The notes under the pieces: generated by a model
The model's input: the letters and a program-made list of their open reading frames with translations, nothing else
Told to the model about the DNA's origin: nothing
Database searches by the model: none
Part shown: piece after piece, positions 56,652-62,001 of the stretch
Numbering within the stretch: the first letter of the stretch is position 1
Layout of the letters: each line of letters begins with the position of its first letter
From: Novosphingobium sp. CECT 9465
GTDB taxonomy: Bacteria > Pseudomonadota > Alphaproteobacteria > Sphingomonadales > Sphingomonadaceae
Length of the DNA stretch: 64,000 nt
NCBI RefSeq assembly: GCF_920987055.1
Contig: NZ_CAKLBX010000001.1
Span: 2,280,501 to 2,344,500 of the forward strand
Direction of reading: 5' to 3'
Made by a program: the position numbers and the translations under genes

Positions 56652-57767
56652 TTAGTCGAGCAACTTGTCCAAGCTCTTCTCCCACTGATCGAAAAAGCCT
56701 TTAGGCCAATACGAGAGCCGGCCTTCTTCCGTCAGCGTGGGCGTCTGGTAATCACTTGGTTGTCCAGGCTCTCGTGTGAAAAAATGTAACTTGGCCTGGT
56801 TGGGCGCGAGGAGACCGTCTTTAACAGCGAGCCGGATCCCGTTAAGCACGTGATCACTATGGCTTTCGATGATAACCTGGACGCCATTGGCGGCCGCAAG
56901 AGCCAATAATCTGCCCATAGAAACCTGGCCGCGCGGATGCAGTTGTGCCTCTGGATTTTCAACGACGAGCATCGTCCCCGGCTCCGCCGCCAAGCAAGCG
57001 GTTATAACCGGAAGGGCGTGCGTTAGGCCGAAGCCAACATTGGTCGGCCGGAGCGGATCCCCATGGGCCGCACCCTCGCCCTTGTAGGTAAAAACCAGCC
57101 GGACCAGATCGGTCATCGGAACCGGCTGGGCGCCCACGCGCACGCCCGGGCTGAATTCCTGCATCCACGCATTAACTTGCGCAATAAGGCTAAAGGCCTT
57201 TTCCTCGTGCGGAGATCGTACGATCTCGGCGGTTGTGATCTGCTCCCCGAATTCAAGCAGGAAGTGTGCGGTATATTCGCCCCGCGCTCCCAAAAAGCGC
57301 TTCTGGCGGACCGCGTCCTGCGACTTCGGGAACGTGACAGAGGGAGTAATGCGATCCGCCCGTAGGAATTGGAAGCCGCGATCAAATAGGTCGAGAAGCG
57401 GAAGTTCCATTCGCTCTGGCTTGGACGTGCAGGAAAGGACGTCAGCCTCTAGGTCTGCAGGAGCCAACCAGCGATAAACGTGATCTTCGCCTTGTCGGGA
57501 TTCGCCGAGCGAGAGCGCAATCTCAGCTTTCGCGAATGCTTGATAAAGAGCATCCCGCCCAGTGCCGATTTCAACTAGCTCGCCGTTCAGAGCCAGATCC
57601 CCTTCAAGCAGAAATCTTCCGTCAAACGACTGACGCAACACCCCAATAGCCTGTAGGACTGTGCTCTTTCCGCTACCGTTCAGGCCAGAGAGAAGGGTCA
57701 AATTGCCTAGGCGAAGTTCAATATCCTCGAACGCCTTGAAGTTTTCGAGACCGATAAAATCAAGCAT
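56652..57767 (-). CDS. AAA ATPase with DUF3696 C-terminus
   Basis: 371 residues, SMC/OLD-like ATPase. Walker A SGLNGSGKST (27-36), Walker B LVVENPEAQLHP (near 265), then IIESHSDHVLNGIR with the switch His, and a C-terminal DUF3696-like YWPKGFFDQWEKSLDKL. It overlaps the upstream DUF262 gene by eight bases. Such ATPases act as sensors or activators in anti-phage systems; here it most likely regulates the two partners. Confidence 0.9.
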   Translation of the reverse strand: MLDFIGLENFKAFEDIELRLGNLTLLSGLNGSGKSTVLQAIGVLRQSFDGRFLLEGDLALNGELVEIGTGRDALYQAFAKAEIALSLGESRQGEDHVYRWLAPADLEADVLSCTSKPERMELPLLDLFDRGFQFLRADRITPSVTFPKSQDAVRQKRFLGARGEYTAHFLLEFGEQITTAEIVRSPHEEKAFSLIAQVNAWMQEFSPGVRVGAQPVPMTDLVRLVFTYKGEGAAHGDPLRPTNVGFGLTHALPVITACLAAEPGTMLVVENPEAQLHPRGQVSMGRLLALAAANGVQVIIESHSDHVLNGIRLAVKDGLLAPNQAKLHFFTREPGQPSDYQTPTLTEEGRLSYWPKGFFDQWEKSLDKLLD

Positions 57768-58920
57768 TGAGAAGAACCTTTTCGATCATCTCTTGGATCG
57801 CGGAAAATCGCCGATTGACTTTGCGGATATCACCGGTGCCTTGGGAGATCGCATTTTCGAACGAACGATCGTGACAGAGCTCGATGAAAGCCATCCGAAC
57901 GGCCTCTCCCGAACTAACCAGCTTGTTTAGATGGTCTTGGGAAAGTCTGGCGAGATTGACAGACAAGGCTTCGAACACGGCCTTGTTAATTGGCAATCGG
58001 CCTGCATCCATGGCGTACCGCTTCCGGAACGCATCCCTCCCGAAGATCGCCGACGCTGCCCGAAGCGCGCTTTCGAAATGAAGCTGCGCCGCGGCGAGAC
58101 TTTCGTTACTTGTGATGTTTATGGCTTTCATAGCGCTGGTGAGGAATCCATCCATGTCAGGCTGCCGGTACGACACTAGACCGAGAAGATAAAACGCCAG
58201 AAAGCGGAGTACGAGTTCACGGTCGTCCATCCGAATCGGTTGCACGCTACCGTCGGTCGCCTCCACGAAAGTTGGCAGGCTTGCCCAAGTTTCCAGTAGC
58301 TCTCTTGCTTTGCCCGGCGTGATCGCGTGCCGGAGCTCTTGCGCGGATAGCGCTATGCCCCCGGTGTTAATTCTGGCGAAGATGTTGAATTTAACTTCTG
58401 GGGGCGTTCCCTTGCGGATGAGATGGATGATGAGTTCCGCCTCTCGAAGGCGCATCTGAAGGCGCGGACTCAGACCATCAAAGGCTTTCCCTTCATAGTC
58501 GTGGAGATACTCGAGCCCAGAGAGTACGAGTGGCCGTTCGTCAATCACCTGCGGTTTGATGAATCGAGCGATTGTCGATAACCGCTGAATGCCGTCCACG
58601 ATCTCCCAGCGTTCATCATCATCCTCAGCGGCGTAGAGTACAGGCAGCGGTATGCGGAGCAGCAGGGATTCGATAAGCCGACTCTGTCGACGCTGGTCCC
58701 ATACCCCCCATCGCCGCTGAAAATCGGGCTGCAGATTTATCATCCCGTTGCCAGTGCGTGAAAGCAGCAGGTCCACCGTCATTGGACGTGTTACGACGTC
58801 GATGTTGTCCGGATCAAAAGGCTCGGCAATCCTTTCGCCTTCTTGGGGCGGCTCTTCCTGTTCGAGACCGGTGGTGTGACCCAGCGCATCCACTTGCTCG
58901 ACAATCTTAGCCTCTTCCAT
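57760..58920 (-). CDS. DUF262 (ParB/GmrSD-like) protein
   Basis: 386 residues from ATG 58920; a GTG at 58926 is two codons earlier. LQPDFQRRWGVW and WEIVDGIQRLSTIARF (DGxQR near 109-113) are the hallmarks of DUF262, seen in GmrS and other restriction-type defence proteins. No C-terminal HNH (DUF1524) domain is present, so nuclease activity is uncertain. It is the first gene of the three-gene operon. Confidence 0.88.
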   Translation of the reverse strand: MEEAKIVEQVDALGHTTGLEQEEPPQEGERIAEPFDPDNIDVVTRPMTVDLLLSRTGNGMINLQPDFQRRWGVWDQRRQSRLIESLLLRIPLPVLYAAEDDDERWEIVDGIQRLSTIARFIKPQVIDERPLVLSGLEYLHDYEGKAFDGLSPRLQMRLREAELIIHLIRKGTPPEVKFNIFARINTGGIALSAQELRHAITPGKARELLETWASLPTFVEATDGSVQPIRMDDRELVLRFLAFYLLGLVSYRQPDMDGFLTSAMKAINITSNESLAAAQLHFESALRAASAIFGRDAFRKRYAMDAGRLPINKAVFEALSVNLARLSQDHLNKLVSSGEAVRMAFIELCHDRSFENAISQGTGDIRKVNRRFSAIQEMIEKVLLNA

Positions 58921-59331
58921 GTCCACTCACCGACCTCCGGCTGCACCGTAGCGGGACGAAACGAATAGCGAAAGAAAAAGCGCCTCGACGCCGCTGACCC
59001 TTTCGAACGGAAGGCGATTTGGCAACGAGTACCGATTTGAGCCCAGTGCTGTTTGAAAATGGGTGAGCTGCTGGTTCCACCCTCGCGCACGGCCCCGTGG
59101 AACGCGCGAACGAACGACGGCTATCAGGATCAATATATCTATATCCCAACGGCTCAAATCAGGGCGCTTCCGGACCGTCCGCTTCGGGGCGGGCGATCGG
59201 CAGCTTCTGTTAGGAAGAGACGTTCATTGTGGGTGATGCGAACGACCGATTAGGGGTCGGATCTTGACAGGCAGATTTGGCGCAAGCAAGTAGAGAGTGG
59301 TTTTTGTTCGCGAGATGAACCAATGGCCACC
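58921..59331. other. Gap with no supported gene
   Basis: 410 bases upstream of the DUF262 gene. It likely holds the promoter of the three-gene operon. Open frames in it have no family resemblance; no repeats stand out. Confidence 0.5.
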
Positions 59332-60091: not shown

Positions 60092-60505
60092 TCAAATCTT
60101 TGTTTGGCTGCGGTCCTCGGTGATACATGATTCGTTCGGATTATGACCTTCTGGGATAATTGTCTGATCATAGGACATGGCATAAGCTCCCGCTTTGTAT
60201 TTTCGCGGCTTTGCAAGGCAGATCAACAGTCCGGTCTTGGCGTCATAATCGTGACCGTGCGCGTCCTGGCGAGTGACGAGCCGATTTGCAACCGACGGGG
60301 CTGGAGACGGTACAACCGGCGCAGCAGATGGAGTGCTCTGAGGAGATGTCGGCGAGGAAGATGAAACAGACGCGGGTTGCGGTTCTTGCTTGGGAAGAGC
60401 TTCGATAGCCTGCTTGATTTGCTTCTTAATGAAACTGCCGACCCCCGCTTGGGCTTGAGTTGCCACGACGGCCGCGACAGTGGCGATGATGAACGACTTG
60501 CGCAT
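60092..60505 (-). CDS. Secreted hypothetical protein
   Basis: 137 residues with a signal peptide (MRKSFIIATVAAVVATQAQA). A Ser/Pro-rich linker (about 45-75) leads to a C-terminal part with two Cys (LLICLAKP, NESCITED) that may form a disulfide. It follows the larger secreted gene by 27 bases in the same direction. Family not recognised. Confidence 0.75.
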   Translation of the reverse strand: MRKSFIIATVAAVVATQAQAGVGSFIKKQIKQAIEALPKQEPQPASVSSSSPTSPQSTPSAAPVVPSPAPSVANRLVTRQDAHGHDYDAKTGLLICLAKPRKYKAGAYAMSYDQTIIPEGHNPNESCITEDRSQTKI

Positions 60506-60532: not shown

Positions 60533-61744
60533 TTATTTATCGCCACGCGGGAAATAGCAACCAAGTTGTCCTGAAGTAACTCCATTGCGAGTCGGATAGC
60601 CCCATGTCCCGCCATGCTGACGACAAGGTTCTGCATATTTCCGAGTTTTTTCTTGGTCCGCAGCTTTCATTTGATCAACAGGCATGCCTTGAGCTCGCAA
60701 GTATTCCTCAGCCTGCTTGTTCGCAGCAGCTTGCTGTTGAGCCATCGCCTCAATGATATTTTTGGGGCCGCCGTCTGCTTGTTGCCTCTGTCGCCGCCGT
60801 GCCTCGGCTTGCTCAAAGGTCTGACCGTTGACAACCCACGCGCGGTTGAAGGCGTTGTTTCCGTCCTTTTGTTGTTCTTCAGTAGGCCAATTGTGGACGT
60901 CAGCGTACATCTCCGACCCATCGTCGTTGCCCCATACTTTGTAGGGCATTCCGCGAATTTGCATTGGGATATGCTTCCCGTCGAAGCCGTTGGCTATGTA
61001 AGTCACATCTGCAGAACAGATGACGCTTTGGAAGGGTATCGAAGAGACCAGTTTGAAATTACCGATCGTCCAAGCCGTAGCGGGAAGCCAAGTCGGCGTC
61101 TCCCTTGCTGTCAAGCCAGTCGCATGAACCTGACTCGTCGTTTCAGCCCAATGTATGATCCCTGCTGCCGCAATGGACACACCAATTTTGGGGCAAAACT
61201 TCTCAGGTTCCCAAGTGGCATTTTCTGTTCCTTTGGGGCGACCAGCCACTGCAGCGACAGCAGCGGCCATGGCTGGATCGTGCTCTGCCTTCTCCTCCAC
61301 CATGGACCGGTAGGAGCGATCATCGAGAAACACGCGCTCCCAAATGGCCGCGATCGATGTCCGTTCGTCGAACCCCGTCAGGGGAAGTGTAACTGGTTCG
61401 ATACTTCCAGTGGAACGGGAATATCGAAATTCCACATCGCGCAGTTCCACTCGGTGGGCGGGCACGGTGGAGGTAACGCTCGCGAAGGTGACACGGCAGA
61501 CAATGACCGAGCCCGTTGAACTCACCACAGAGCCGTGGCTAACCGAGCCGGCCTTGACAGCCTGCTCCACGAACGTCTGCCGGTAGCGCTCACCCCAATC
61601 GCGGGTCAATTGTGATGCAGCATCCGTAAAATTGCCTCGATCACAGAAATCACTATCGACGGCGCTAGACTGAGCAGCAGCCGGATTAGTAAAGATTAAC
61701 GCAAAAAATGTGGTGCAGGTAATCAATGCGACGTTGTGGCGCAT
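60533..61744 (-). CDS. Secreted hypothetical protein with structured leader
   Basis: 403 residues from ATG 61744, chosen because GGGAGG lies five bases upstream and a signal peptide (MRHNVALITCTTFFALIFTN..AAA) begins there; the frame stays open to 61993 through the structured leader. It ends with GGTWGYPTRNGVTSGQLGC. No family recognised. Paired cysteines suggest export. Translation is probably limited by the hairpin hiding the ribosome site. Confidence 0.8.
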   Translation of the reverse strand: MRHNVALITCTTFFALIFTNPAAAQSSAVDSDFCDRGNFTDAASQLTRDWGERYRQTFVEQAVKAGSVSHGSVVSSTGSVIVCRVTFASVTSTVPAHRVELRDVEFRYSRSTGSIEPVTLPLTGFDERTSIAAIWERVFLDDRSYRSMVEEKAEHDPAMAAAVAAVAGRPKGTENATWEPEKFCPKIGVSIAAAGIIHWAETTSQVHATGLTARETPTWLPATAWTIGNFKLVSSIPFQSVICSADVTYIANGFDGKHIPMQIRGMPYKVWGNDDGSEMYADVHNWPTEEQQKDGNNAFNRAWVVNGQTFEQAEARRRQRQQADGGPKNIIEAMAQQQAAANKQAEEYLRAQGMPVDQMKAADQEKTRKYAEPCRQHGGTWGYPTRNGVTSGQLGCYFPRGDK

Positions 61745-61746
61745 AC

Positions 61747-61926
61747 GTGCCTCCCTTCGTAACGGAGGCACCGGGCAAAGCCGGGTGTTCAGAACCCTGA
61801 GCAGACCCAAGGCGTCGCCGCCTTTAGGCGAGCCTTGGACATGCGCGACGACCACCCGGCCGAGGAATCTCGACCGGCGTCTGCTGTTTGAGGTTCTGAC
61901 GCCTCCCCAACGGGACGGACCGTTGG
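61747..61926 (-). ncRNA. Structured 5' leader, candidate cis-regulatory RNA
   Basis: Six perfect or near-perfect helices nest in 180 bases. Outer pair 61789-61796 with 61892-61899 (8 bp) and 61800-61806 with 61879-61885 (7 bp) enclose two hairpins, 61807-61838 (7 bp plus inner 4 bp) and 61856-61877. Beyond lie hairpins 61907-61926 (7 bp) and 61769-61787. The last helix, 61747-61754 with 61764-61771 (8 bp), sequesters the GGAGG ribosome site and shares three bases with hairpin 61769-61787, so the two exclude each other. That is riboswitch-like architecture; no known class was recognised. Confidence 0.65.
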
Positions 61927-62001
61927 TGACGCTTCTATGCGGGTTGTGTTTGTCCTGAGCAAGGCGTGACTCTGGAAAAGTGAAATTGATCATGGGCTAT
62001 C

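Follow-up and report, generated by a model that had tools for sequence, protein, structure and literature searches.

A candidate cis-acting pseudoknotted leader RNA ahead of secreted-protein genes in Novosphingobium, with relatives on plasmids and phages

The locus and its structured leader

The window discussed in this article, a stretch of 64,000 nucleotides from Novosphingobium sp. CECT 9465, carries near its end, on the minus strand, a leader of some 180 nucleotides that stands just ahead of two genes. The initial annotation, made from the letters of the sequence, saw there a riboswitch-like structured RNA with the ribosome site held in its last hairpin, followed by two secreted proteins of unknown function. 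As far as the proteins are concerned this description stood: both begin with what looks by eye like a signal peptide, and neither belongs to a Pfam or NCBIfam family. Upstream of the leader, TTGCTC separated by 17 nucleotides from CATAGA (61962-61934) makes a putative promoter, with transcription predicted to start around 61927. The neighbourhood deserves a word of its own. Between 62002 and 64000 lie a DUF3768 gene, a gene whose 212-residue product has no Pfam family, and the end of a phage-type integrase, as one would expect of an integrated mobile element; at 56652-58926, two neighbouring genes, whose products have GmrSD_N and AAA_15/AAA_21/DUF3696 domains, perhaps form a defence module. 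The features of the locus are the following.

61957-61962, minus strand: -35-like TTGCTC, 17 nt from the -10-like sequence; CTTG columns invariant in 10 aligned leaders
61934-61939, minus strand: -10-like CATAGA; CGCATA columns invariant in 10 aligned leaders
61907-61926, minus strand: P0 hairpin, 61926-61920 with 61913-61907, loop TCCGTC, 7/7 pairs
61890-61905, minus strand: P1 hairpin, GAGG-CGTCAGAA-CCTC
61789-61899, minus strand: long-range pairing of the P1 loop with J, 61899-61892 with 61796-61789
61800-61885, minus strand: P2 pairing, 61885-61879 with the P6 loop at 61806-61800
61856-61877, minus strand: P3 hairpin in its long form, 61877-61869 with 61864-61856, 9/9 pairs
61781-61859, minus strand: PK helix, which closes the core, 61859-61853 with 61787-61781, crossing P1 and P2
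61814-61852, minus strand: P4 helix, 61852-61845 with 61821-61814, internal loop GCATGTCCA / AAAG
within the P4 element, minus strand: P5, 61835-61833 with 61828-61826
61795-61812, minus strand: P6 hairpin, 61812-61808 with 61799-61795, hypervariable loop 61807-61800
61747-61771, minus strand: ribosome-site hairpin, 61771-61764 with 61754-61747, 8/8 pairs, enclosing GGGAGG at 61755-61750
60533-61744, minus strand: downstream gene, 403 aa, ATG at 61744-61742
60092-60505, minus strand: second downstream gene, 137 aa

The leader is a structured, control-like RNA, well beyond what chance would produce. On the minus strand, the stretch 61740-61960 has a folding energy of -106.5 kcal/mol (z -5.17, none of 200 shuffles being as good), and the stretch 61740-61930 reaches z -4.75 against shuffles. 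Checked base by base, P0 (7/7), P1 (8/8), P2 (7/7), P3 (9/9), P4 (8/8) and the ribosome-site hairpin are all fully paired, as the description of perfect nested helices had it. The minimum-energy fold omits PK, an additional conserved helix; as P1 and P2 cross it, the RNA forms a pseudoknot. In its long form P3 shares four bases with the 5' strand of PK, hence the two compete. The placing of the ribosome site proved exact, the eight pairs of the final hairpin enclosing GGGAGG, and so did the three bases said to be shared by the last two hairpins (61771-61769), the preceding one being formed, by eye, from CACC at 61787-61784 and GGUG at 61772-61769.

Covariation among the relatives

A blastn search with the window leader retrieved relatives from 38 of 195 Novosphingobium genomes (E <= 1e-5) and from 17 plasmid records, all Sphingomonadales except one Caulobacter. 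The pattern drawn from these relatives, CCGGGTSGY...RYATGTCCAR...AAAG, matched at least 119 stretches of a genome collection, 73 of 80 being Sphingomonadales by title among the matches listed, and nine times in viral contigs; a looser form matched at least 120 viral stretches, many probably by chance. A filter on P4 complementarity passed 38 viral rows, those with a closing helix being kept by eye. The 156 places of the pattern came down to 141 once identical sequences were removed, and four blastn relatives and 15 viral sequences brought the number to 160. After 14 sequences without a recognisable closing strand (located by a tolerant expression) and two that were too short had been dropped, dereplication at 90% left 97, referred to as A1, of which 16 are viral. 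Since A1 was gathered with a fixed pattern, CCGGGTSG, ATGTCCA and AAAG owe part of their constancy to the way the set was built; pairing of P4, P5 and P6 was unselected in the genome set, some viral members having been filtered on P4.

In A1 the core, made of PK, P4 with its internal loop, P5 and P6, has 96.2% of its cells paired as against 77.4% in shuffles, and 17 of its 23 pairs change on both sides, in 408 cells where shuffling gives 137.5. Slid controls bring the pairing down to 32-45%, and RNAalifold, run without guidance, arrives at a nearly identical core structure. Helix by helix, P4 is paired in 97.6% of cells with both-side changes in 7/8 pairs, P5 in 88.3% (2/3) and P6 in 93.5% (5/5); PK reaches 99.9%, with both-side changes in 3/7 pairs, its 5' strand being mostly fixed by the search pattern. 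The 5' hairpins were followed in 41 window-like sequences (A3). P1 is paired there in 100% of cells, a single pair covarying (6 GC, 1 GU), in a set whose search expression itself prescribes most of the hairpin. P0 has 76% of its cells paired and both-side changes in all seven pairs. The five inner pairs of P3 are paired at 92%, four of them changing on both sides, and the four outer ones, nearly constant, can form in 36-41 of the 41 relatives.

Covariation also shows the 5' domain (the P1 hairpin and the P2 strand) to be joined to the 3' core through two predicted long-range pairings. These lie outside the covariance model presented below, and thus constitute an independent test of that model. 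The 5' hairpin was sought as [GA]GG..T-NNN-AA[CA]C and the J strand as TT-NNN followed by AA or similar: among 137 loci the first motif occurs in 100, the second in 123 and both in 97, one being missing in 40. The P1 and J triplets are fully complementary in 88 of the 97 loci with two motifs (shuffled mean 11.3, maximum 21), complementary triplet pairs being of more than 20 different kinds, and several of the nine misses resemble register shifts. In A3, 97.9% of the P1-J cells are paired, and P2 has 79.3% of its cells paired with both-side changes in 7/7 pairs. Taken jointly, the two pairings have 145 cells changed on both sides against 48.8 in shuffles and a covariation score of 0.541 against 0.151; two of the five measures do not clearly exceed shuffles in A3, namely the number of pairs with a both-side change (10 against 9.8) and that of pair types (36 against 32). 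A complement of at least 7 nt between the P6 region and the second 5' strand, that of P2, is found in 70% of the 81 non-viral loci (control 13%).

The compensatory changes by which the annotation wished its leader to be judged are therefore present in the core, in the P1-J triplets and in P2. Coding conservation of the long frame, which would have spoken for a protein, shows no sign of itself: of 81 leaders, 40 lack any frame that stays open across 170 nt, and the other 41 have one or more. We accordingly set aside the reading of the leader as a coding frame; the window leader does have one open frame, but those 40 leaders lack any, and locus L010 has a 1-nt insertion.

Distribution, downstream genes and kinship with sRNA-Xcc1

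A covariance model of the core, R1, which counts the window leader among its training sequences, matches 96 of 296 genomes of the order Sphingomonadales (E <= 1e-4), 30 of 289 genomes of the class (E <= 1e-3) and 38 of 299 of the phylum (E <= 1e-4), searches over more than 40 genomes having used stricter filters, which lose weak matches. In these model searches the genome of the window yields one copy. In direct comparison, blastn left the phage-type leader L158 without match in E. coli genomes and phages, and L209, L215 and L351 without match in phages, and L285 matched four records of three phages; two matches of the window leader to phages at E 0.7 were taken as chance. In loci L039 (near 5656; L029 shares its junction; Novosphingobium aerophilum) and L139 (near 2751), the RNA is broken right after CCTAAAG by the same sequence. 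The second half of the RNA lies about 1.6 kb further in L039, and the intervening open reading frame resembles, by eye, a transposase of the IS110 family, so that elements of this kind may insert preferentially into the conserved core.

The position of the RNA with respect to genes is regular. An open reading frame of at least 50 codons starts on the same strand within 300 nt in 120 of 126 loci, 89 of them with a Shine-Dalgarno match of at least 4; 75 of 123 loci have a Shine-Dalgarno match with a frame of at least 60 codons starting within 120 nt, a situation met in 16 of 121 cases on the other strand and in 25 of 112 at places 700 nt further on. What follows is mixed: secreted proteins of unknown function, ECF sigma factors, phage antirepressors, a GGDEF protein. 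Clustering of 138 frames chosen by length left many singletons and a few small groups beside one cluster of 27, which opens with ECF sigma factors; since the longest frame was taken, some of these assignments are wrong. The downstream proteins are unrelated (mean column identity 5%, n=83). In 83 of the 85 proteins preceded by a Shine-Dalgarno match, the largest Pfam groups are sigma-70 region 4 (7), P22_AR_N (3), Bro-N (3), HTH (3), Rha (2) and DUF805 (2), to which a PHROGs search adds antirepressor and regulator families. The same RNA also recurs, a point which the annotation proposed to check, before other genes whose products have signal peptides by eye. In loci L017, L021, L030, L033 and L035 a short frame and the beginning of the main gene overlap in the form ATGA (by eye). 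On plasmid pF1 of Sphingobium yanoikuyae the leader (L355, 4001-4126) is flanked by a sigma factor gene and a GGDEF gene, and the plasmid also has an IS110 family transposase. That the genes downstream are unrelated suggests that the RNA moves as a unit. Its recurrence, with changes that preserve the shape, before unrelated genes of alphaproteobacteria, plasmids and phages points to a widespread on/off control element.

No known RNA class had been recognised at the start, and with respect to Rfam this holds: scanning the whole 64-kb window gave no match above threshold, RF02221 (cut-off 53 bits) included, and even at E up to 5 no family was listed near the element on its own strand. RF02940 at 61798-61833 (13.7 bits, E 1.7) lies on the plus, hence the wrong, strand and is attributed to chance. 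Subthreshold names on relatives (mir-228, P10, PyrR208, WsnRNA46, whalefall-1, ryfA) all fall away from the core, and SgrS, which overlaps the core of L314 with 20.7 bits for a cut-off of 37, was also taken as chance. The RNA is not an isolated one, however, for its architecture is common with sRNA-Xcc1 (RF02221). Both have an outer helix, a helix with an internal loop bearing an inner hairpin, a second hairpin and J, in the same order and with similar size. The internal loop is AAUACAA / GAAUA in sRNA-Xcc1 and GCATGTCCA / AAAG in the window, the latter being the same throughout A1, where the pattern fixed its letters. The Rfam model, 87 nt long, is without the 5' domain of the window class.

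The two models recover each other in part. RF02221 gives 34.7 bits with one viral member, and is present in 36 of 150 genomes of the phylum, 25 above cut-off, and in none of 14 control genomes. R1 recovers 11 of 30 RF02221 loci at full length and in register (E up to 0.69; the best 6.4e-5, nine at or below 0.022) and does not find 19; conversely, RF02221 recovers in register six of 20 class-level R1 loci, at 31.7-37.2 bits, all below the cut-off of 53, and does not find 14 (E up to 0.5). Upstream of the RF02221 loci a strand complementary to J over at least 6 nt is found in 30/30 (control 32%), and over at least 7 nt in 26/30 (control 12%). It lies 69-137 nt before the model start in 28/30, at 32 and 60 in the others, usually within a GGGG..CCCC-like hairpin (by eye). 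With J-pairing strands upstream, it seems that the 87-nt model is limited to the 3' core and that sRNA-Xcc1 makes up the 3' half of a leader of greater length. Between 5' strand and core of these loci (L282-L311), a run of at least five T within 75 nt is seen in 24/30 and a strict terminator-like hairpin in 17/30, its loop often resembling CCCGTCAG (by eye); attenuation inside the RF02221-type leader is possible.

Chen and colleagues reportedly named sRNA-Xcc1 a trans-acting sRNA in the title of their 2011 paper. In the published sources, it is placed upstream of symE in Xanthomonas integron cassettes (PMC12444791), mapped by RACE as an 88-nt RNA (PMC2996969), counted seven times in Xylella, five copies being close together in one island (PMC12189769), counted 15 times in one Aeromonas salmonicida strain (PMC8780938), and listed with many reads in a table for a strain of E. 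coli O157:H7 (PMC5331693). We found no description of it as a leader or riboswitch in the excerpts available from the open-licence literature, and no paper of that literature on an RNA of the window class in sphingomonads. In two named phages, Rac-SA53 (KU052037) and Aaphi23 (AJ560763), the RF02221 element stands just before ant, with 78.1 and 86.1 bits; the antirepressor genes of these phages (loci L353 and L354) are thereby headed by an RF02221 leader, and in Aaphi23 the leader lies between the antitermination gene q and ant.

A proposed switch before the ribosome site and its rivals

We can now consider the whole as a cis-acting pseudoknotted leader of about 180 nt, belonging to a large class often carried by plasmids, phages and islands, which would control the next gene, and to this reading we give roughly two chances in three. 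In the sequences compared, the end of the core lies shortly before the start of the next gene, and the leader RNA would set the translation start there. In the phage and RF02221 types, the P6 loop bound to the 5' strand would leave the ribosome site free, and bound to the ribosome site would block it. In the window type, formation of the ribosome-site hairpin would depend on PK and on the local hairpin before it, and in a few other alphaproteobacterial members, where the core is followed by a terminator-like hairpin, it may be transcription that is controlled. The trigger, be it a metabolite, a protein or RNA processing, would probably act at the conserved internal loop. Against the cis reading, the mapping of sRNA-Xcc1 by RACE as an 88-nt RNA (PMC2996969) leaves room for a trans role.

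How far do the strands themselves agree with a switch? In the viral and RF02221 types, the P6 region finds a complement of at least 7 nt upstream in 69% and 73% of loci (controls 10%) and in the downstream flank in 50% of 16 and 53% of 30 (controls 14% and 9%), and a single k-mer of at least 6, complementary to the P6 region, is present on both sides in 44% of the 16 and 50% of the 30 (controls 8% and 3.6%). This three-strand pattern is what a switch between upstream partner and ribosome site would leave. A complement of the P6 region downstream is not in excess in the window type (11% against 12% in the control). A complement to the ribosome site of at least 8 nt is found in 20% of the 81 non-viral loci against 3% in a swapped control, and the ribosome-site hairpin is paired in 68% of the cells of A3, at an end that aligns poorly. 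A GGAGGC decoy facing the anti-Shine-Dalgarno strand of the window type was not retained: its k-mer excess is weak (at least 7 nt, 23.5% against 14%), and covariation does not support it (80.8% of cells against 79.4% shuffled, 29 of 500 shuffles being as high). In the window type, where only the upstream partner of P6 is supported and the decoy is without covariation, how the core would act on the ribosome site is therefore inferred. Terminators past the core looked common by eye; under a strict rule, a terminator-like hairpin within 45 nt of it occurs in 4 of 29 class-level loci, and it was dropped as a general trait. The label of riboswitch-like leader consequently stands for a structured, covarying leader before a gene; as for the on/off layout, the last two hairpins are a candidate for it, and two further alternatives are conspicuous: PK and the long P3 exclude each other, and among phage-type relatives the P6 loop can pair either with the upstream strand or with the ribosome site.

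A sharper form of the same reading is a classical riboswitch, where the P4/P5 internal loop (GYAUGUCCA with YAAAG) would bind a small molecule and the long-range pairings would signal to the ribosome site or a terminator. A conserved loop inside covarying helices ahead of a gene, a 5' domain that is widespread (its motif in 100 of 137 loci) with varied expression platforms, and the many unrelated genes under one RNA are all to its credit, for second-messenger riboswitches form single RNA classes that govern many unrelated genes. Gene content indicates no pathway, however, the largest Pfam group being 7 of 83, and the loop itself differs, AUGUCCA/AAAG here, AAUACAA/GAAUA in RF02221. A riboswitch in the strict sense we hold to be possible, if on balance rather unlikely.

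The C4 antisense RNA of phages P1 and P7 is a leader that heads an antirepressor gene and has a loop able to pair with the ribosome site, and one may imagine, by analogy, a leader excised from an ant-type message whose freed core would act as antisense, through its P6 loop, on the ribosome site of its own gene, with a private loop code per copy. The downstream complements of P6 (53% of RF02221 and 50% of viral loci), the place of the RF02221 element in Rac-SA53 and Aaphi23, directly ahead of ant, and the mapping of sRNA-Xcc1 as an 88-nt RNA (PMC2996969) all fit this picture, as does ACCA just past PK in 11 of 29 class-level loci (L313-L341) where 0.86 would be expected, a possible mark of RNase P. 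This ACCA resembles the acceptor end of a tRNA, and the RNA could be a substrate of RNase P. Yet the window type is without the downstream complement, ACCA is rare elsewhere (2/30 RF02221, 1/81 non-viral, 1/16 viral loci) and as a general mark had to be given up, being confined to part of the class, and no C4 match is among the hits listed by any cmscan of the window or of the relatives scanned. We find this reading doubtful. A free-standing trans-acting sRNA gene that merely sits beside genes, as the classification of RF02221 in Rfam as an sRNA gene and the strict terminator-like hairpin past the core in 4/29 class-level loci might suggest, is very improbable, the orientation of the RNA and its distance to the next start codon being non-random and its core complementing its own downstream flank in the phage and RF02221 types. 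An RNA thermometer whose ribosome-site hairpin melts with heat would account for the sequestered Shine-Dalgarno, but thermometers are not known to need a conserved internal loop or a long-range pseudoknot, and the best conserved part is here the core, not that hairpin, so that it is hardly credible.

With 96 matches among the 296 genomes sampled from the order and 30 among the 289 from the class, we have a common, uncharacterised RNA class without an Rfam family of its own, which offers a shared, testable control of plasmid, island and phage genes, antirepressors included. It also suggests that sRNA-Xcc1, studied as a trans-acting sRNA, would be half of a cis leader.

It remains to situate this RNA among known systems. 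As in translation-type riboswitches, a conserved folded domain is followed by a Shine-Dalgarno hairpin; the window class differs in having no coherent pathway downstream. The likeness to C4 RNA is limited to the phage-type members, with their leader before an antirepressor gene and their loop complementary to the ribosome site, whereas the fold of the window class is larger and pseudoknotted, and precedes many genes foreign to phages. As for sRNA-Xcc1, where the downstream flank is a target of P6 in RF02221 and not in the window type, we think that it is a sister branch within one broad class of pseudoknotted leaders. More tentatively still, and with less than even confidence, the window RNA and sRNA-Xcc1 could form one superfamily of control leaders, travelling on phages, plasmids, integron cassettes and islands before any accessory genes, where the internal loop would respond to one signal of the cell shared by all, while each copy would address its own message through the private code of its hypervariable P6 loop.
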